Below, in pieces: positions 1,460 to 8,762 of a stretch of 20,243 bases of DNA (position 1 is the first letter of the stretch; each line of letters opens with the position of its first letter). This stretch comes from Vulcanimicrobiota bacterium (GTDB taxonomy: Bacteria > Vulcanimicrobiota > Vulcanimicrobiia > Vulcanimicrobiales > Vulcanimicrobiaceae), in NCBI GenBank assembly GCA_013289785.1, contig JABCZE010000003.1, positions 1 to 20,243 on the forward strand. The letters run 5' to 3'. The notes beneath the pieces were generated by a model. The model saw only the letters and a list, made by a program, of their open reading frames with translations, had not been told where the DNA came from and searched no databases. Both the position numbers and the translations under genes were made by a program.

Positions 1460-2655
1460 TCGAGCGCCTGGTCGGCGGTGCCCCGTGCCGCCGCGAGCGC
1501 TAGGGCCATCGTGGGCATCCATAGCCCGAAAATTACCACGCTCACCGTATCGATCAGGCCTTGCACGGCGACGCCGGCCAGTCCCGCTGCTGCACCGCAG
1601 GCCAGCAAGGCTGCGGGCTGGGAAGCACTCGCCAAACGCGATCGCAGCTCGATCACGAATCGCCAGATCGTCCAGACTACGGCGCAGACGCCCACGATGC
1701 CGAACTCCGCGAAGAACGTGAGGTAGAGGCTATGGGCATGGAAGGCCGTCGGATCGCCGTCGGGAGCGCGCACGAGCGGATAGAGACGGGAAAAGTTGAA
1801 CGGCCCGACGCCTAGCAGAGGAAACCGGTCGATAATCTGGATTGCGGCCTGCCAGATCGAGAGACGGGTGTAGTCCTCGCTCGGATCGTGGTGCGCGTTG
1901 AAGAGGAGCACGACGATGCAAATCCCCACAGCGACGACCGCGGCGGAGACCGCCGGCCGCCGCGTGCGCACCGCAACCAAGAACGCAGCCGCTGCCGCGC
2001 ATCCCATCCAGCCGGCGCGCGAAAACGTAAGCGCCAGCGCGACCAAGCCGACGCCGAGCGCGCTCCAAGCGATCGCGCCTAAGACGCGCGAGCGCGCGAT
2101 GCACCCAACGGCGTAGGCGATCGGTAGGAGAACGATCAGGTAACCGGCGAGCTCTCCCGGTAAGATGAACGTGCCCGTTGCGCGCCCGTGTTGGAGCGCG
2201 TAAAGATTCACGGGAGAGCGCAGTGCCACCATCGCGATCGCGATCGCCGCAGCAATCCCGCCCGAGAGTAGAAAGCCCCCGAAAATTAGCGTCGCCGCAT
2301 ATCGATCACCGTAAAAGCGTAGGATCGAAGAGGACCATACGATGCCGAGTCCGCCGATAAACGTGAAGACCAAGCCGGAACGCGGGTCGAACCCTAAGCA
2401 GCCCGCGAGCAGACCCGCACCAAAGACCATCAGCAAGGGCGCGAGCAACGGTTGCGAGCCGGCGATGGGATAACGCGCAAGCATCGCGAGAGCATAGATT
2501 GCAAGAACGCAGCAGCCCGCGAAAACGGCCAAAATCGCCGGCACCGGCAAGAGCGAGACTCCCGGAAATGCGACGCCGGTAAACGTGATGAAACTGGGAA
2601 AGAGCGGCACAGCCATGAAGATCAGTCCGAGCGCCGCGGGCATATAGCGCCGCAT
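1456..2655 (-). CDS. O-antigen ligase / Wzy-type polymerase family membrane protein
   Basis: A 399-aa polytopic protein with about ten to eleven hydrophobic segments. It carries family hallmarks: an R-A-T-G-T-F segment near 158-163, F-S-R-A-G-W at 211-216, and a large periplasmic loop with W-Q-A-A near 268, G-V-G-P-F-N-F at 282-288 and F-H-A-H-S-L-Y-L at 305-312. These define the Wzy_C/O-antigen-ligase family, whose members transfer undecaprenyl-linked glycans to lipid A-core (WaaL) or polymerise repeat units (Wzy). Location inside the lipid A/LPS export operon favours a WaaL-like role, but WaaL and Wzy cannot be separated by sequence alone. The ATG at 2655 overlaps the upstream stop as TGATG and has AGGGG seven bases before it. 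A longer in-frame reading to 2781 lies inside the upstream gene and was rejected. Confidence 0.85.
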   Translation of the reverse strand: MRRYMPAALGLIFMAVPLFPSFITFTGVAFPGVSLLPVPAILAVFAGCCVLAIYALAMLARYPIAGSQPLLAPLLMVFGAGLLAGCLGFDPRSGLVFTFIGGLGIVWSSSILRFYGDRYAATLIFGGFLLSGGIAAAIAIAMVALRSPVNLYALQHGRATGTFILPGELAGYLIVLLPIAYAVGCIARSRVLGAIAWSALGVGLVALALTFSRAGWMGCAAAAAFLVAVRTRRPAVSAAVVAVGICIVVLLFNAHHDPSEDYTRLSIWQAAIQIIDRFPLLGVGPFNFSRLYPLVRAPDGDPTAFHAHSLYLTFFAEFGIVGVCAVVWTIWRFVIELRSRLASASQPAALLACGAAAGLAGVAVQGLIDTVSVVIFGLWMPTMALALAAARGTADQALD

Positions 2656-3818
2656 CAGCTTTCCCCTGTCAGCGATGCGATGCGATCCGCGATGCGGTGC
2701 GCGGCGCCGCCGGCACCCATGCGCGCACGCCCGGTTTCGCTCATCTGCCGCCGGCGCGCCGGGTCGTCCAAAATATCGCACACGCCGCGTGCGGCATCGG
2801 CGGCATTACCGGTCAGAACGGCGAGCGCGTCGCCCAGTAGACCTCGTTGTCGCCGGCGATACCAACGTTCGTTCGACGCCCGGTCGCGGGCAAACGCTAC
2901 AACGGGAACGCCGGCCGCCGCGGCGCCTTCGTTCGCGGTTCCGGCTTGGCCCAGGACCAGCGTGGCGTCTTTGAGCAATGAGGCCGGGCTTCCGGTCCAA
3001 GCGCGCAAGACGGTGCGCCCGTTCAAACTCAAAGCGAACGGAATGCAATCGTGAGATTCGCGGGTGATTTGCCAGCCGGTGCGTTGCGCGCCGGCCGCAA
3101 AACGCTGCGCGTCGAGCCCGCGCGCGATCGAAAGCACCGCCCCGACGCCGGGCCTCGCGCCGGCGATCTCGCGCAACACCTCGAGCAGGAAGCCCGCGTC
3201 GTCGTACGCGCCGGCACGACTTCCGGGATAGAGCGCGAGGATCGTCGCGAACCCGGCGACCGCGGCTTCGATGGCCGGGTCGTCGCCGGGCGCGAAGAGA
3301 TCGACGATTACGTTGGCGCTAGGCTCGACCGACAAGCCGTGCTCGCGCAGCGCCTGCGCCGTCGCTTCGTCGCGCACGAAGCAGGCCTGCGCGCGCCGGA
3401 GAACTCGTTCTTCGAGCGCGCCGTAGCGGGCAACGCGAACGCTCTTCGCGGTGCCGACGAAGACGGTACGCGCTCGCGCGCGAAGCGTCATCGCCAGGGC
3501 GTAAACGTCGCCGACGGCGACGGCGACGTCGTACGATCCACGGACGGCACGCAAGAACTTTCTTTGCGCCACAACCAGCGGCAGCAGACCGGCGCGCAAA
3601 TCTTGCATCAGATTCGCGATGTTTCCCATTGCGATCAAACCACCGCTGGGCATCGTGCGGCGCGGACCGACCTCTCGAAGCGAATCCGAGACCGGTTCGC
3701 CCACCAAGGCTAAATGGTCGAGCATTACTTCGGGCGCGACCGCGTGCAGCTCGGCGGCGATGCGGTCCGCGATGGCCGCTTCCCCGTGTCCGTTCGAAAC
3801 GAAGAGCACACGCTTCAC
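2655..3818 (-). CDS. LpxB-related glycosyltransferase (lipid-A-disaccharide synthase-related family)
   Basis: A 387-aa protein with a GT-B type layout. The N-terminus has S-N-G-H-G-E at residues 8-13, G-D-V-Y-A-L near 103-108 and P-G-S-R at 198-201. A G-Q-A-G-T-A-N-E-G segment near 290-300 corresponds to the donor-binding region of LpxB. This matches the family described as lipid-A-disaccharide-synthase-related, known from cyanobacteria and Deinococcus, whose reaction I do not know to be established. It is clearly different from the true LpxB in this operon. It starts at GTG, overlapping the stop of the metallophosphoesterase gene (GTGA), and its stop overlaps the O-antigen ligase start. The context suggests glycosylation of lipid A or of an envelope lipid; that is inference. 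No signal peptide is present, so it is probably cytoplasmic or peripheral to the inner membrane. Confidence 0.82.
   Translation of the reverse strand: MKRVLFVSNGHGEAAIADRIAAELHAVAPEVMLDHLALVGEPVSDSLREVGPRRTMPSGGLIAMGNIANLMQDLRAGLLPLVVAQRKFLRAVRGSYDVAVAVGDVYALAMTLRARARTVFVGTAKSVRVARYGALEERVLRRAQACFVRDEATAQALREHGLSVEPSANVIVDLFAPGDDPAIEAAVAGFATILALYPGSRAGAYDDAGFLLEVLREIAGARPGVGAVLSIARGLDAQRFAAGAQRTGWQITRESHDCIPFALSLNGRTVLRAWTGSPASLLKDATLVLGQAGTANEGAAAAGVPVVAFARDRASNERWYRRRQRGLLGDALAVLTGNAADAARGVCDILDDPARRRQMSETGRARMGAGGAAHRIADRIASLTGES
2663..2667 (-). promoter_or_regulatory. Ribosome binding site fixing the O-antigen ligase start
   Basis: AGGGG lies inside the end of the upstream glycosyltransferase gene, seven bases before the ATG at 2653-2655. 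It supports the 399-aa start over the 42-codon longer reading, and it places initiation at the TGATG junction as expected for coupled translation. Confidence 0.6.
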
Positions 3819-4558
3819 GAAGCATCCAGGAGGGGAACCAGCGCAAAATCGTCGACCGCGAAGCGGCGACGGTTCGCGTCATACACCAGCTCGCTGCGCG
3901 ACACGAACTTCCCATACGGCCCCGCGTGAACGATCGGGACGTCTCCGACGTAGCGCGGGGCCGGCAGGGTATCGTGGCTGTGACCGCCCAGCAGCAAATC
4001 GATGCGCGGAACCCGCGCGGCCAGCTCGCAGTCCAGAGAGAGTCCTAAGTGCGAAAGCACGACGAGCGGCTCGCCTTCGGCCACCGCGGCCGCGAACGGT
4101 GCGATGGCCTCCCACGGGTTGAGGAAACGCCAGCCGAAGACTCGCTCCCAGAAGCTTTGCTCGGGGTACTGCATGATCAGCAACCCAAGGACGTTCACGT
4201 ACGTCGGGTCGCCCTGCAAGCCGGTCGCGCGCAAGCGCAACGACTGCGCAAAAGGCAACGGACGCCCTTTGGTATCGCGTAAGTTCGTACAGACCAACGG
4301 GTGGTGCATTCGCACCGCACGGGCGCGGAGCGCTGCGAAGAGATAGTGAAATTCGCGATTCCCGATGCTCTGCGCGTCGTAGCCGGCCTCGTCGAGCTCC
4401 GCAACGATCGGCTCGCTGCGGTGGTACACCGTTTGGCTGCCGCGCAGCGAGTCGCCGCAATCGAAGAGCCAACCCGGCTGCTGCGCGCGCAACGCTCGCA
4501 AGCGCCCGGCGAAACCGCGCCGGTCGTGCAAATCGGAGGTGTGATAGATGCGGATCAC
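3815..4558 (-). CDS. Calcineurin-like metallophosphoesterase in the lipid A operon
   Basis: A 247-aa enzyme of the 5'-nucleotidase/UshA-like metallophosphoesterase fold. Motifs run in order: D-L-H at 9-11, C-G-D-S at 34-37, G-N-R-E at 66-69, S-H at 169-170 and G-G-H-S-H-D at 191-196. These supply the Asp, His and Asn ligands of a two-metal site. The third motif normally reads G-N-H-E/D; here His is replaced by Arg. There is no signal peptide and no C-terminal nucleotide-binding domain, so it is unlike secreted UshA and is probably cytoplasmic. GTG at 4558 overlaps the lpxB stop (GTGA), and a longer reading to 4906 lies wholly inside lpxB. Lipid A synthesis needs cleavage of UDP-2,3-diacylglucosamine by LpxH, LpxI or LpxG before LpxB, and none is recognisable elsewhere here. 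This gene is a candidate for that step, but the substrate is not shown by the sequence. Confidence 0.85.
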   Translation of the reverse strand: MIRIYHTSDLHDRRGFAGRLRALRAQQPGWLFDCGDSLRGSQTVYHRSEPIVAELDEAGYDAQSIGNREFHYLFAALRARAVRMHHPLVCTNLRDTKGRPLPFAQSLRLRATGLQGDPTYVNVLGLLIMQYPEQSFWERVFGWRFLNPWEAIAPFAAAVAEGEPLVVLSHLGLSLDCELAARVPRIDLLLGGHSHDTLPAPRYVGDVPIVHAGPYGKFVSRSELVYDANRRRFAVDDFALVPLLDAS

Positions 4559-5679
4559 CGGCGGCGCGAATCCGAGGCGCGCGCCAGTTCGACGGCGTAA
4601 CGCGCGCAACGCTCGAGCGCGTCGGGCGGTCCGAGCGCCTTTCGAAACTCCAGAAAATCCTCGTACTGCTGCGACGGGTCGTTCATCAGCGCCCCGAGTG
4701 CCGTCGCCAGCCCTTCGGGGCTCGCGCGCTCTTGAAGCAGTTCCGGAACGACTTCGCGACCCAATACGAGGTTCGGCAGCGTAATGAAACGGTGTTTGAC
4801 CATGCGGCGGCCGTACCAAATCAGCGCCGGCGGAATCACGTAGATCGCCACGGCCGGCACGCCGATCAGCGCAGTTTCGAGTACCGCGGTTCCAGAGGCG
4901 ACCCAAGCGCCGTCCGCATTCTCTAAGGCCGCGGTCACACCCGGCGCAATTTCCACGTTACTCAAACGCTCGCGCGCGATCGCCGCTTCGATCGTCTGCA
5001 TTGCGCGCGAGTCTGCCGCTCCGAAAACGCCGCGAAGCCCGGGCCGCCGCGCTTGCAGCGTACGATACGCCGCGGCAAGCGCCGGCAGATGCCGTCGTAA
5101 CTCGCCGCCGCGACTGCCGGGCAGCAGTGCCACGACGCCGCCATCCGCAGGTGGAGCCGGCCGGAGCGGCCGCATTGCGTATCGGCTCGTCAGCGGATGT
5201 CCGAAGAACTCGATACGACAACCCAGACTCCGATAGAAATCGTATTGATGCGCGAACGCCGTCACCGGAACGCAAACGGCACTCACTTGACGCGCCTTCT
5301 TTTCGTCGTCGAGCCACGCGCCGGGCGGAAACAGGTCGAGAATCGGCCCTTCATAGCGCAACCGTCGCAGCTGGTTTGCCAACCGCAAGTTAAAAACGCC
5401 GAAGTCCACCAGCACGACCAAGTCGGGTTTCGAGACGACGATATGAGCGGCAGTGCGGAGCATGGCGTCGAGCAGCTTAGGAATCCGCGGAATCGCGGCG
5501 GCCGGACCCATGCTGGCCCAACCGGTATGATCGCGCCATAACGTAAAGCCGTGCGCGCGCATCGCCGTGCTCCCGATGCCTTCAAACTCCGCCTCCGGAT
5601 CGTTTGCGCGAATCGCTTGCGCCAGCGCGATCGCACTCGCCTCCCCCGACGGTTCCCCAGTCGAGACGAAGTACTTCAT
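4555..5679 (-). CDS. lpxB: Lipid-A-disaccharide synthase LpxB
   Basis: A 374-aa GT19 glycosyltransferase that would join UDP-2,3-diacylglucosamine to lipid X, forming the beta-1,6 disaccharide of lipid A at the cytoplasmic face. Visible motifs are G-E-P-S-G-E at 8-13, V-D-F-G-V-F-N with Asp92 aligning to catalytic Asp98 of E. coli, F-G-H-P at 159-162, L-L-P-G-S-R at 185-190, A-S-G-T-A-V-L-E at 261-268 and L-P-N-L at 301-304. Length is normal (E. coli 382). The usual S-P-x-x-W-A-W loop is divergent, reading F-P-P-G-A-W near 117-122. The gene follows lpxA by 21 bases, with no lpxI between them, and its stop overlaps the metallophosphoesterase start. Confidence 0.94.
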   Translation of the reverse strand: MKYFVSTGEPSGEASAIALAQAIRANDPEAEFEGIGSTAMRAHGFTLWRDHTGWASMGPAAAIPRIPKLLDAMLRTAAHIVVSKPDLVVLVDFGVFNLRLANQLRRLRYEGPILDLFPPGAWLDDEKKARQVSAVCVPVTAFAHQYDFYRSLGCRIEFFGHPLTSRYAMRPLRPAPPADGGVVALLPGSRGGELRRHLPALAAAYRTLQARRPGLRGVFGAADSRAMQTIEAAIARERLSNVEIAPGVTAALENADGAWVASGTAVLETALIGVPAVAIYVIPPALIWYGRRMVKHRFITLPNLVLGREVVPELLQERASPEGLATALGALMNDPSQQYEDFLEFRKALGPPDALERCARYAVELARASDSRRR

Positions 5680-5700: not shown

Positions 5701-6468
5701 TCACTTTAGCACGCCGCGCTCCGAAGGCGCTTCGAGAAAAGCGATGATCTCGCGCCCGGCGTCGGTTCTAACTTCGGCCTTCATCGCTTCGATTGCTTGG
5801 GAGACGTTGAGCTTGGGATCGTACAGCAGCTTATAGAAGCGTTTGATCTCCGAGCGCTGCTCGACCGGAAAGGCCGCGCGGCGAAGGCCGACGCTATTGA
5901 GACCGTAGGGTTGGCACGGATTACCCTCGACGAGAAAGAACGGCGGCACGTCTTTGGTTAGTTTGCTCATTCCGCCGACCATGGCATGGCGGCCGACGCG
6001 GGTAAACTGATGAATGCCGGTCTGACCGCCAATCGTCACGTAGTCGCCGACGTTGACGTGTCCCGCGAGCTGCGCGAGGTTGCTCATCGTGACTCCATTG
6101 CCGAGAATGCAGTTGTGGGCGATGTGAACGTAGGCCAGCAGGAGGCAGTCGTCACCGACGGCGGTGAGTTCGTCCCGGCCGGTCGCGCGTTGGATGCTGA
6201 CGTATTCGCGCAGGATCGTACGGTTTCCAATGCGCGTGAAGGCTCGCTCGCCTGCGTACTTGCGATCTTGCGAGGCCGCCCCGACGGTAGAAAAAGGGTA
6301 GAGCTGACAGTCGTCCCCGATTTGCGTCCACCCGTTCACGACGACGTGCGCTTGCAAGATCGAACGCGCGCCGATCGATACGTGCTCGCCGACGATGCAG
6401 TACGGCCCGATCTCCGAGTTTTTTCCGATCTCCGAGTTAGGGTGAACGATTGCCGTGGGGTGAAGCAT
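5701..6468 (-). CDS. lpxA: UDP-N-acetylglucosamine acyltransferase LpxA
   Basis: A 255-aa acyltransferase catalysing the first lipid A step, transfer of a 3-hydroxyacyl chain from acyl carrier protein to the 3-OH of UDP-GlcNAc. The N-terminal two thirds is a left-handed beta-helix of hexapeptide repeats. The H-I-A-H-N-C segment carries His118, aligning with catalytic His125 of E. coli, and G-I-H-Q-F lies further along. The C-terminal helical segment begins with the F-F-L-V-E-G-N-P region. Length is close to E. coli LpxA (262). It starts at ATG, 13 bases after fabZ. LpxA and LpxD are similar folds; the A-H-I-A-H type motif and the C-terminal domain favour LpxA. Confidence 0.96.
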   Translation of the reverse strand: MLHPTAIVHPNSEIGKNSEIGPYCIVGEHVSIGARSILQAHVVVNGWTQIGDDCQLYPFSTVGAASQDRKYAGERAFTRIGNRTILREYVSIQRATGRDELTAVGDDCLLLAYVHIAHNCILGNGVTMSNLAQLAGHVNVGDYVTIGGQTGIHQFTRVGRHAMVGGMSKLTKDVPPFFLVEGNPCQPYGLNSVGLRRAAFPVEQRSEIKRFYKLLYDPKLNVSQAIEAMKAEVRTDAGREIIAFLEAPSERGVLK

Positions 6469-6481
6469 CAGCGCCCCGAAA

Positions 6482-6955
6482 CTATACGTGGAGCACGGTG
6501 GAGTCCGCGCCGAACATGCGCGGGTTGGAAACGATCGAGAACATGATCTCGGCGGAGCAGGCGAACTGGCCGTCGACGGTCGCCTCGCCGCTCACCCAGC
6601 CGATGTTGCGCTTATGGCGCAGCATCGTTACGACCATGTCCAGCCTGTCGCCCGGAACGACCGGACGGCGGAACTTCGCTTTGTCGATCCCGGCCAAATA
6701 GGGCGTCTTGCGCGAGAACTCGCCGGGTTCCAAGATCATCGCGCCGCCCAACTGCGCGAGCGCCTCGATCATGTAGACGCCCGGTAGGACGGGATTCCCC
6801 GGAAAATGGCCGGCAAAGATCTGTTCGTTGTACGTGATGTTTTTATAACCACGCGCCCGTACCATGTGCTCGAACTCGAGAATGCGGTCGACGAGCAGCA
6901 TCGGGTAGCGATGCGGCAATATTTCAAAGATCTGGCGGATGTCGAGTTCGGCCAA
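6482..6955 (-). CDS. fabZ: 3-hydroxyacyl-ACP dehydratase FabZ
   Basis: A 157-aa hot-dog-fold dehydratase of fatty acid synthesis, acting on 3-hydroxyacyl-ACP, the same pool LpxA and LpxD use for lipid A. The hallmark G-H-F-P-G-N-P-V-L-P-G-V at 49-60 holds catalytic His50, and Glu64 lies in I-E-A-L-A-Q. I-L-P-H-R-Y-P at 12-18 is typical of FabZ. It starts at TTG, with AGGAGAG seven bases upstream overlapping the lpxC stop. No LpxC-FabZ fusion is present, unlike in some diderm lineages; the two genes are separate, ten bases apart. Clustering with lpxC and lpxA is common in LPS-making bacteria. Confidence 0.96.
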   Translation of the reverse strand: MAELDIRQIFEILPHRYPMLLVDRILEFEHMVRARGYKNITYNEQIFAGHFPGNPVLPGVYMIEALAQLGGAMILEPGEFSRKTPYLAGIDKAKFRRPVVPGDRLDMVVTMLRHKRNIGWVSGEATVDGQFACSAEIMFSIVSNPRMFGADSTVLHV

Positions 6956-6960
6956 GGCTG

Positions 6961-6967
6961 CTCTCCT
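6961..6967 (-). promoter_or_regulatory. Strong ribosome binding site deciding the fabZ TTG start
   Basis: AGGAGAG overlaps the last bases of lpxC, including its TAG stop, and lies a few bases before the TTG at 6953-6955. It supports initiation at TTG and coupling of fabZ translation to the end of lpxC. Confidence 0.65.
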
Positions 6968-7787
6968 ATGCAGAAGGCACGCGCATTCGCGAGCGTAATG
7001 CGGTCGTTAGCGAAGAATGGAGTTGGTGCCCGCTCTTGATGGCGATCAGCTCGCAGTGCGGCCACGCTCCGAGTAACGCGAGGTCGCCGATTAAATCGAG
7101 CACCTTGTGGCGCACGGCCTCGTTGGGCCAGCGCAGGGGCTGCATCGGGCCGTCGGCGGTAAAGATCAGCGCATTTTCTAAACTCCCGCCCTGGCCCAAA
7201 CCGCTTGCGAGCAACGCCTGCACCTCATGCAAGAACGCGAACGTGCGCGCGCCGGCGATCTCCTCCACGTACTGCTTGGGATCGATTTCGCCGGAGAAGT
7301 ATTGCGTTCCGACCGGTTGCGGGAAATCGGCGAGGAAGCGCACGCGAAAGCTCGGGGCGGGAAAGGCTGCGACCAGTTTGTCGCCATCGCGGACGATCAC
7401 GGGTTCTTCGAGGTCGAGGATCCTGCGCGGCGCGAACTGCTCCTGCAAGCCGCACTGCTCGATCGCGGCAGCAAACTCGGATGCGCTTCCGTCCCGCACC
7501 GGAATCTCGGGGCCTTCAACCACGATATCGGCGTTGGCGACGCCCATGGCAAAGAGCGCGGAGAGCAGGTGTTCCGTCGTCGAAACGGTGGCGCCGTCGC
7601 GACCGAGAACGGTCGCTCGCGTCGTATCGACAACGAACTCTGCCGTCGCCGGAACGCGAATGCTCCCAAGCAGAAAGGTGAAGCCGGCGTCGGCCGCCGC
7701 GGGGCGTACCTCGACGCTGCAGTGCGCTCCCGTATGGAGCCCGACGCCCCCAAAACGAAGGCTCTGGCGCAACGTCGTTTGCATCAT
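6966..7787 (-). CDS. lpxC: UDP-3-O-acyl-N-acetylglucosamine deacetylase LpxC
   Basis: A 273-aa zinc deacetylase catalysing the committed step of lipid A synthesis. Zinc ligands are visible as His73 in T-T-E-H-L-L and His227 plus Asp231 in R-H-K-V-L-D-L-I-G-D, with Glu72 beside the first. His254 in G-H-Q-L-H aligns with the catalytic His265 of E. coli. The N-terminus G-V-G-L-H-T-G at 14-20 is typical. At 273 aa it is shorter than E. coli LpxC (305), mostly because it lacks a C-terminal tail, and so may lack the tail that directs FtsH degradation there. Two adjacent ATG codons (7787 and 7784) could both start it. It follows lpxD by six bases. Confidence 0.96.
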   Translation of the reverse strand: MMQTTLRQSLRFGGVGLHTGAHCSVEVRPAAADAGFTFLLGSIRVPATAEFVVDTTRATVLGRDGATVSTTEHLLSALFAMGVANADIVVEGPEIPVRDGSASEFAAAIEQCGLQEQFAPRRILDLEEPVIVRDGDKLVAAFPAPSFRVRFLADFPQPVGTQYFSGEIDPKQYVEEIAGARTFAFLHEVQALLASGLGQGGSLENALIFTADGPMQPLRWPNEAVRHKVLDLIGDLALLGAWPHCELIAIKSGHQLHSSLTTALRSRMRVPSA

Positions 7788-7793
7788 CGGGCG

Positions 7794-8762
7794 TTACTTA
7801 GGGCGCGAAGACGAGCGCTCCAAAGCCTCGACACGATCGAACAACTTTGGCAGCTTACGAATCATGACCTGTCGGCGAAGCTCGTCGTGGTGGCGCTGCG
7901 CCGGGTTGCCCGAAATCGTGACGCCGTCTTCCACGTCACCCCAAATACCGGATCCGCCGGCGATCGTCACGTTCGAGCCGACCGTTATGTGTCCGTTGAA
8001 ACCGGCCTGGCCGCCAACGCGGACGTAATCTCCAATGACCGTCGAGCCGGCCAGCCCCGTTTGCGAGGCAATCACGCAGTGCTTTCCGATGCGGCAGTTG
8101 TGCCCGATCTGGACCAGGTTGTCGATCTTCGTGCCGGCGCCGACGACGGTGCTTCCCGTCTGAGCACGGTCGATGCACGAGTTCGCGCCGATTTCGACGT
8201 CGTCTTCGAGCACGACGTTTCCAACCTGCGGAATTCGTTGCGCTTGTCCGTCCACGAAGGCCCAGCCGAACCCGTCGCTGCCGATTACGCAGCCCGGATG
8301 CAAGACGGCCCGGTCACCGACTACGCAGCCGTCGGCGACATACGCGCCGGCGCCGACGACGGTTCCCGCTCCGATCGAGGCGCCGCTGCCGATGTAGGCG
8401 TGGGCCTCGACGTACACGTCGCCCGCCAGGCGCGCGTCGGGTGCGATCACCGCGCTGGGATGACGAAAGGCGCCGCGCGCTCTTGAGGGACGCAACGCTT
8501 CAAGCAGCTGCGCGAGAGCCGCGCGCGCGTTTCCGACGACCAATAACGGCTTGGGCGCCGACCGGGCACCCAGCGATTCATCGACGAGCACCGCTGCGGC
8601 GTTGCTCGAACACGCTGTAACGAAATACGCTTCGCTGGTTGCAAACGTCAACGAGTCGCCGCCTGCCTCTTCCACGCTCGCGATCCGAGCGATTGGGACG
8701 CTGCCGTCGCCAACCACGCGTCCGCCCACACGACTGGCCAGCTCGTTCAGCGTGCTCGGCAC
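7794..8762 (-). CDS. lpxD: UDP-3-O-acylglucosamine N-acyltransferase LpxD
   Basis: A 322-aa acyltransferase adding the N-linked acyl chain to UDP-3-O-acylglucosamine. Three parts are visible: an N-terminal uridine-binding domain (about 1-98), a left-handed beta-helix of hexapeptide repeats (about 100-285) and a C-terminal helix. G-S-D-G-F-G-W-A at 161-168 and N-L-V-Q-I-G-H-N with His221 match the family; His221 aligns with catalytic His239 of E. coli. The start is GTG at 8762, abutting the TAA of the preceding Skp-like gene with no intervening base. Order skp-lpxD matches the common bamA-skp-lpxD arrangement in Proteobacteria. Confidence 0.96.
   Translation of the reverse strand: MPSTLNELASRVGGRVVGDGSVPIARIASVEEAGGDSLTFATSEAYFVTACSSNAAAVLVDESLGARSAPKPLLVVGNARAALAQLLEALRPSRARGAFRHPSAVIAPDARLAGDVYVEAHAYIGSGASIGAGTVVGAGAYVADGCVVGDRAVLHPGCVIGSDGFGWAFVDGQAQRIPQVGNVVLEDDVEIGANSCIDRAQTGSTVVGAGTKIDNLVQIGHNCRIGKHCVIASQTGLAGSTVIGDYVRVGGQAGFNGHITVGSNVTIAGGSGIWGDVEDGVTISGNPAQRHHDELRRQVMIRKLPKLFDRVEALERSSSRPK

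Follow-up and report, generated by a model that had tools for sequence, protein, structure and literature searches.

The window analysed here is a 20,243-nt stretch of a Vulcanimicrobiota genome (assembly GCA_013289785.1, contig JABCZE010000003.1), and the gene of interest within it encodes a metallophosphoesterase located in a lipid A biosynthesis cluster (Table 1). On the minus strand the genes are ordered lpxD, lpxC, fabZ, lpxA, lpxB, the phosphoesterase gene and a gene encoding a TIGR03492 protein. The initial annotation of this locus recognized that the lipid A genes are present except for a UDP-2,3-diacylglucosamine hydrolase, and suggested that the phosphoesterase could be a new, non-orthologous enzyme for this step. 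For this step PMC4807358 gives three enzymes, LpxH, LpxI and LpxG. The phyletic pattern, the gene linkage and an active-site arginine reported here argue strongly for the phosphoesterase as a new enzyme for the UDP-2,3-diacylglucosamine step, and make a stronger case than the initial annotation could.

The GTG start codon of the phosphoesterase gene overlaps the lpxB stop codon by 4 nt (GTGA), and its own stop codon overlaps the GTG start of the downstream gene (2655-3818), again as a 4-nt GTGA. The coordinates agree with the initial annotation that lpxA and lpxB are 21 bases apart, which leaves no space there for lpxI, a gene often found within lpx clusters. The description of the product as a leaderless calcineurin-fold enzyme of the UshA/5'-nucleotidase branch is upheld by family matches and fold comparison. 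There is no leader, as the first predicted strand is already at residues 2-7; the catalytic metallophosphoesterase domain of the UshA branch is present, and the nearest solved folds are 5'-nucleotidases and SoxB. The sole Pfam domain is Metallophos (PF00149; 23.5 bits against a cut-off of 21.5), and the protein ends at 247 aa without the C-terminal 5'-nucleotidase domain. Nine NCBIfam models match, all far under their cut-offs (e.g., the SoxB model TIGR04486, 67.9 bits against 550); TIGR01854 (lipid_A_lpxH) is not among them, and the protein has no match to the LpxI_C domain (PF06230). Two traits of LpxG, an N-terminal transmembrane helix and a GNHD block, are also lacking, as the protein begins with the strand at residues 2-7 and carries GNRE. 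The phosphoesterase is thus predicted to be a single-domain form of the UshA/5'-nucleotidase catalytic domain. The 50 rows listed in the fold comparison contained no LpxH chain, which does not exclude similarity to LpxH. In LpxH the acyl chains are held by a helical insertion. Because an hhalign comparison of the phosphoesterase family with one E. coli LpxH sequence matched only 16 columns (E 0.094), kinship with LpxH is not claimed.

Table 1. Genes of the lipid A cluster and active-site blocks of the phosphoesterase in the window
Feature	Position	Strand	Details
Candidate UDP-2,3-diacylglucosamine pyrophosphatase, leaderless UshA-type metallophosphoesterase	3815..4558	-	247 aa, GTG start
D9-x-H11 putative metal-ligand block	4526..4534	-	invariant in 83/83 rows
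G35-D36 putative metal-ligand block	4451..4456	-	invariant in 83/83 rows
GNRE block G66-N67-R68-E69, Arg for the usual His	4352..4363	-	GNR in 84/84 phylum copies read
H170 putative metal ligand	4049..4051	-	invariant in 83/83 rows
H193-x-H195 putative metal-ligand block	3974..3982	-	invariant in 83/83 rows
lpxD	7794..8762	-	NF002060, 326 bits
lpxC	6966..7787	-	PF03331, 291 bits
fabZ	6482..6955	-	NF000582, 183.8 bits
lpxA	5701..6468	-	NF003657, 333 bits
lpxB	4555..5679	-	PF02684, 193 bits
LpxB-related glycosyltransferase-like protein, TIGR03492	2655..3818	-	206.2 bits, cut-off 219.2; 4-nt overlap with the phosphoesterase gene

Distribution and linkage across the phylum

Lipopolysaccharide (LPS) genes and an outer membrane covered with LPS have been described for this phylum (PMC6664022, PMC9758169), and a cultured member, Vulcanimicrobium alpinum, is reported to have such a membrane together with 3-hydroxy fatty acids (PMC9758169). 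The assembly containing the window is 66% complete, so that an absence from it says little, and a sample of 148 Eremiobacterota/Vulcanimicrobiota genomes (the window's own and 147 relatives) was used instead, comprising 16 families and including 85 genomes graded good. The named relatives are mostly labelled Eremiobacterota, Vulcanimicrobiaceae, Baltobacteraceae or Cybelea; the few labelled Proteobacteria, Armatimonadetes, Bacillota, Burkholderiales, Chloroflexi or Melainabacteria were taken as mislabelled metagenome-assembled genomes and not as other phyla.

The initial annotation had left room for an LpxH or LpxI encoded elsewhere in the genome. LpxI (PF06230) was found in 0/148 genomes, the Caulobacter control being matched, and LpxH (TIGR01854) in 0/148 at E 0.001, with the E. 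coli and Bacteroides ihuae controls matched. LpxJ was considered as a further hydrolase name and set aside; no hydrolase use of the name was found in the literature listed, and we take LpxJ to be an acyltransferase.

LpxB was matched in 141/148 genomes and in all 85 good ones; the LpxB profile also matches the Bacillus and Lactococcus controls, where the match is therefore not specific. The phosphoesterase was likewise matched in 141/148 genomes, including 84 of the 85 good ones, counted as any match at E 0.001, a count that paralogues might inflate. Both proteins co-occur in 138 genomes. Six others have one without its partner, and all six are cut at contig ends: in G078, G116 and G131 (LpxB only), LpxB reaches the contig end or close to it, and in G100, G113 and G133 (phosphoesterase only), the gene is at the contig end on the expected lpxB side. 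Four genomes have neither protein. Two of these (G103, G141) also lack an LpxC match, and in the other two (G135, G143) LpxC lies at or within 1.4 kb of the contig start, which is the side expected for the later genes. Genome G025, initially an apparent exception, encodes the phosphoesterase with GNRE just upstream of the TIGR03492 gene, its lpxB being on a separate contig.

Gene linkage was read in 83 of the 141 genomes, consisting of the 30 best matches and chosen lineages (G025 was added later). The arrangement noted in the window recurs across the phylum: lpxB is located upstream of the phosphoesterase gene, on the same strand and within 4 kb, in 77/83 genomes, and within 200 bp in 52/83. 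Four of the remaining six have no lpxB on the available piece, and G020 and G023 have lpxB nearby on the opposite strand. The TIGR03492 gene is found downstream on the same strand in 80/83 genomes, within 200 bp in 79. Phosphoesterase copies were read in all 16 families, in 14 of them with lpxB on one piece; families f6 and f11 have no lpxB on the available piece. By judgement rather than calculation, unrelated genes would come nowhere near this degree of linkage by chance.

LpxG was searched for by way of E. coli YaeI, which we take to be a proxy for it. YaeI relatives were found in 26/148 genomes (12 of the 85 good ones), with 0/116 in the window's class (families f1-f3) and 26/32 outside it. 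A YaeI-like enzyme therefore cannot serve the step in the window's class; in the deep lineages it is a possible second candidate beside the GNR protein.

LpxK gave weak matches in 3/148 genomes, one of them above the cut-off, and is thus essentially absent from the sample, so that the lipid A pathway resembles that of cyanobacteria. For lineages whose only lpx genes are lpxA, lpxB, lpxC and lpxD, PMC3087551 describes a pathway of four enzymes that is perhaps primordial. The Synechococcus elongatus control is matched by LpxB, LpxC and TIGR03492 and not by LpxH, LpxI or LpxK, in line with what the same source describes for cyanobacteria.

The third metal-ligand block

Seven residues, D9, H11, D36, N67, H170, H193 and H195, are invariant in the 83 aligned rows and are taken to be metal ligands by comparison with the seven ligands given for LpxH. 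The third block reads GNRE in all 83 rows and in G025 (84 phylum copies), where the norm for UshA-type proteins is GNH(E/D). This change was absent from the initial annotation and adds independent support to it. Among the proteins examined by Opiyo et al. (PMC3087551), the His-to-Arg change is given solely for LpxH, and the Pseudomonas aeruginosa LpxH structure paper (PMC5016852) also presents it as LpxH-only, with the arginine binding the phosphate of lipid X via a bidentate salt bridge. LpxG is described as retaining GNHD (PMC4807358) and performs the same step; the arginine is thus a signature of LpxH and not a necessity for the reaction.

Twenty-five UshA-type controls (24 paralogues from the phylum and E. 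coli UshA) were read; 21 have GNH and none has GNR, the other four lacking a GN block (GEA, GLC, GEG, GEG). The last ten controls comprised six with GNH and the four without the block. The UshA-type paralogues without the GNH block are from deep genomes (L252:1109-1885, L253:929-1741, L254:903-1727, L256:792-1850); they carry GEG, GEA or GLC instead and are possibly non-catalytic. Compared with the first 15 controls, the family has its own S41 and Y72, and Y131 in 75/83 rows. A tree of 62 GNR copies and 15 controls groups the GNR copies on one side of a 100/99-supported branch. A collection of 232 proteins, including that of the window and gathered as relatives rather than as a random sample, contained 227 with GNRE, two with GNHE, one with GSHE and two in which the match stopped short of the block. 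A contig scan gave 93 matches (80 kept) with a strict pattern that already includes GNRE, so that it cannot test the motif and would miss other lineages.

Other metallophosphoesterases were examined as PF00149 members of 12 genomes, from which 50 loci were taken (L171-L220). A script read the motif in 38 proteins as GNH, GNT, GNK, GNS or GNC and never as GNR, the frame possibly being wrong in some (e.g., L189); it found none in 12 loci (L190, L192, L197, L198, L201, L203-L207, L212, L220). Two PF00149 proteins read from G022 share no match at 1e-5 with four read from G006. The window's family also has another conserved metallophosphoesterase of the cytoplasm, in which GNT or GNK replaces GNH (L176, L185, L191, L193, L194).

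Proposed function and alternatives

The phosphoesterase has the catalytic-domain fold, by prediction, and the metal-ligand blocks of the UshA/5'-nucleotidase family (E. coli UshA, CD73, NadN, YunD, SoxB), differing in the missing leader and C-terminal domain, in Arg68 for His and in the three family-specific residues. With beta- and gammaproteobacterial LpxH it has in common the metallophosphoesterase superfamily, the GN-Arg block and, presumably, the reaction, but it belongs to another branch of the superfamily with no detectable sequence kinship, and its gene adjoins lpxB, whereas lpxH is described as lying outside lpx clusters (PMC3087551). Chlamydial LpxG is likewise a calcineurin-fold stand-in for LpxH outside the LpxH and LpxI families; its predicted N-terminal membrane helix and GNHD (PMC4807358) are both absent from the phosphoesterase. 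LpxI performs the same step and is an unrelated protein.

These features suggest, with a probability of about three in four, that the phosphoesterase fills the gap left by the fourth lipid A enzyme in this phylum. It would act in the cytoplasm as a metal-dependent UDP-2,3-diacylglucosamine pyrophosphatase of UshA descent with an LpxH-like Arg68. The best explanation of the data is a fourth, independently evolved class of this pyrophosphatase that converged on LpxH, and the sequence evidence is best read as pointing to a new enzyme class for a known step. Searches of the open-licence literature listed no description of such an enzyme from Eremiobacterota, subscription papers not being covered.

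The gene, its linkage, its phyletic pattern and its residues are observed and its fold is predicted, whereas substrate, mechanism, direction of attack and membrane docking are inferred. The enzyme would descend from an UshA/5'-nucleotidase catalytic domain; the leader and the C-terminal nucleotidase domain are absent, and all seven putative metal ligands are retained. By analogy with LpxH, the metal pair would direct water onto the alpha phosphate of UDP-2,3-diacylglucosamine, with the beta phosphate bound by Arg68. The products would be UMP and lipid X (2,3-diacylglucosamine 1-phosphate), or the GlcN3N counterpart of lipid X, and lipid X would then be passed to LpxB, the product of the adjoining gene. 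As the sugar phosphate is a good leaving group, the reaction may dispense with the histidine, and an arginine at that position can hold the beta phosphate. E. coli UshA is annotated as a UDP-sugar hydrolase, making cleavage of the UDP diphosphate a long-established reaction of this fold. The four-enzyme gap becomes directly testable with a candidate that is linked to the operon across the phylum and bears the LpxH signature residue. If correct, the assignment would be a clear case of a superfamily evolving the same arginine twice, in separate branches.

Several observations weigh against this assignment. The sequence link to LpxH is limited to the motif, and any LpxH-like lipid-binding cap would be hypothetical; the arginine, dispensable in LpxG, may serve something else. 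The YaeI-like proteins outside the window's class could be LpxG-type rivals. Synechococcus, with its four genes and no LpxH or LpxI match, implies that an unrecognised enzyme for the step may exist. Lastly, the gene is more tightly linked within 200 bp to the TIGR03492 gene than to lpxB.

This last observation raises an alternative that we consider rather unlikely, namely that the phosphoesterase serves the TIGR03492 protein in some other glycolipid step, whether later or separate, and that the UDP-2,3-diacylglucosamine hydrolase is an unrecognised protein encoded elsewhere. In the deep lineages the TIGR03492 gene is nearer than lpxB, and TIGR03492 matches both the Synechococcus and Deinobacterium control genomes, the latter having no LpxB or LpxC match. 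However, such a role leaves the step without an LpxH or LpxI candidate in 148 genomes and the LpxH-type arginine unexplained, and the phosphoesterase-TIGR03492 pair is itself kept with lpxB in 77/83 genomes. Less probable still is removal of the 1-phosphate from the lipid A disaccharide on the cytoplasmic side, resulting in phosphate-free lipid A of the cyanobacterial type. The near absence of LpxK, the phosphate-free LPS described for cyanobacteria (PMC3087551) and the phosphomonoesterase activity found among UshA relatives would all fit, but the step before LpxB would be unfilled, loss of the histidine suits diphosphate cleavage better, judging from LpxH, and the remote LmtA-like methyltransferase described below hints that the 1-phosphate is retained.

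A slim chance, hardly different from the last, falls to a nucleotidase, UDP-sugar hydrolase or SoxB-like enzyme of the cytoplasm that sits in the operon incidentally or for regulatory reasons, as the nearest solved folds might imply; against this stand the low scores of all nine NCBIfam matches, the missing C-terminal domain, GNR in every copy read and linkage kept across the phylum. A YaeI/LpxG-like phosphoesterase can be given almost no weight as the enzyme of this step: LpxG provides a calcineurin-fold precedent (PMC4807358) and YaeI-like proteins are common outside the window's class, but they are absent within it, the GNR protein occurs in both groups, and YaeI is itself a proxy for LpxG.

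Four short GNRE proteins (P0224, P0225, P0226, P0227) form a sister group to the phylum's phosphoesterase family, the joint branch having support of 100/97 in a 44-row tree. A tblastn search of plasmids with P0225 matched 273 records, and the 20 of these that were listed are annotated as UshA, 5'-nucleotidase, metallophosphatase or SoxB or have no annotation; no relative was found in viral contigs. When P0225 was compared with 58 phylum genomes, the 15 best places were GNR copies, and in several deep genomes (e.g., G005, G020, G043) a long GNH paralogue outscored the GNR copy. It is conceivable, at somewhat less than even odds, that the class reaches the further lineages to which these proteins point, in which case a fourth, UshA-derived class would have converged on the LpxH arginine and the supposed four-enzyme pathway would have had an overlooked fifth enzyme.

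Neighbouring genes in the window and in deep lineages

TIGR03492 was matched at E 0.001 in 145/148 genomes, 58 of them above the cut-off. In the window, its gene is followed by genes for a Wzy_C O-antigen-ligase-type protein, an LptC-related protein and an ABC ATPase (read as LptB), and upstream of lpxD are genes encoding OmpH-like proteins, an Omp85/BamA-type protein and TamB.

Twelve deep loci were read by first residues. Between lpxB and the phosphoesterase gene, a second LpxB-like glycosyltransferase is encoded in nine of them and a small membrane protein resembling methyltransferases in ten; only the L031 inserts were scanned against families. The L031 membrane protein (L031:3079-3651), a small ICMT/PEMT-type protein in the lpx cluster, is remotely similar to Leptospira LmtA, a lipid A 1-phosphate methyltransferase (E 4.2e-17; 62.7 bits, far below the cut-off of 325). 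An LpxB of ~800 aa is encoded at L044:6121-8541, L066:7523-9970 and L067:8529-10943. The second half of the L044 protein weakly matches the LpxB and TIGR03492 models, and these long proteins look like fusions of two glycosyltransferases; elsewhere among the deep genomes, lpxB is followed by its own LpxB-like neighbour, a separate gene with an NSPGEL-type start.

Between fabZ and lpxA, a Gfo/Idh/MocA oxidoreductase with UDP-GlcNAc 3-dehydrogenase as its top NCBIfam match, below the cut-off, is encoded at L042:6230-7240 and within L043:12017-14178, where a DegT aminotransferase accompanies it. These are possibly GnnA/GnnB-type genes for GlcN3N lipid A. A second LpxD-like gene is found near the lipid A cluster in deep genomes, at L044:11500-12456, L047:14809-16188, L066:3369-4352 and L076:8911-10089.
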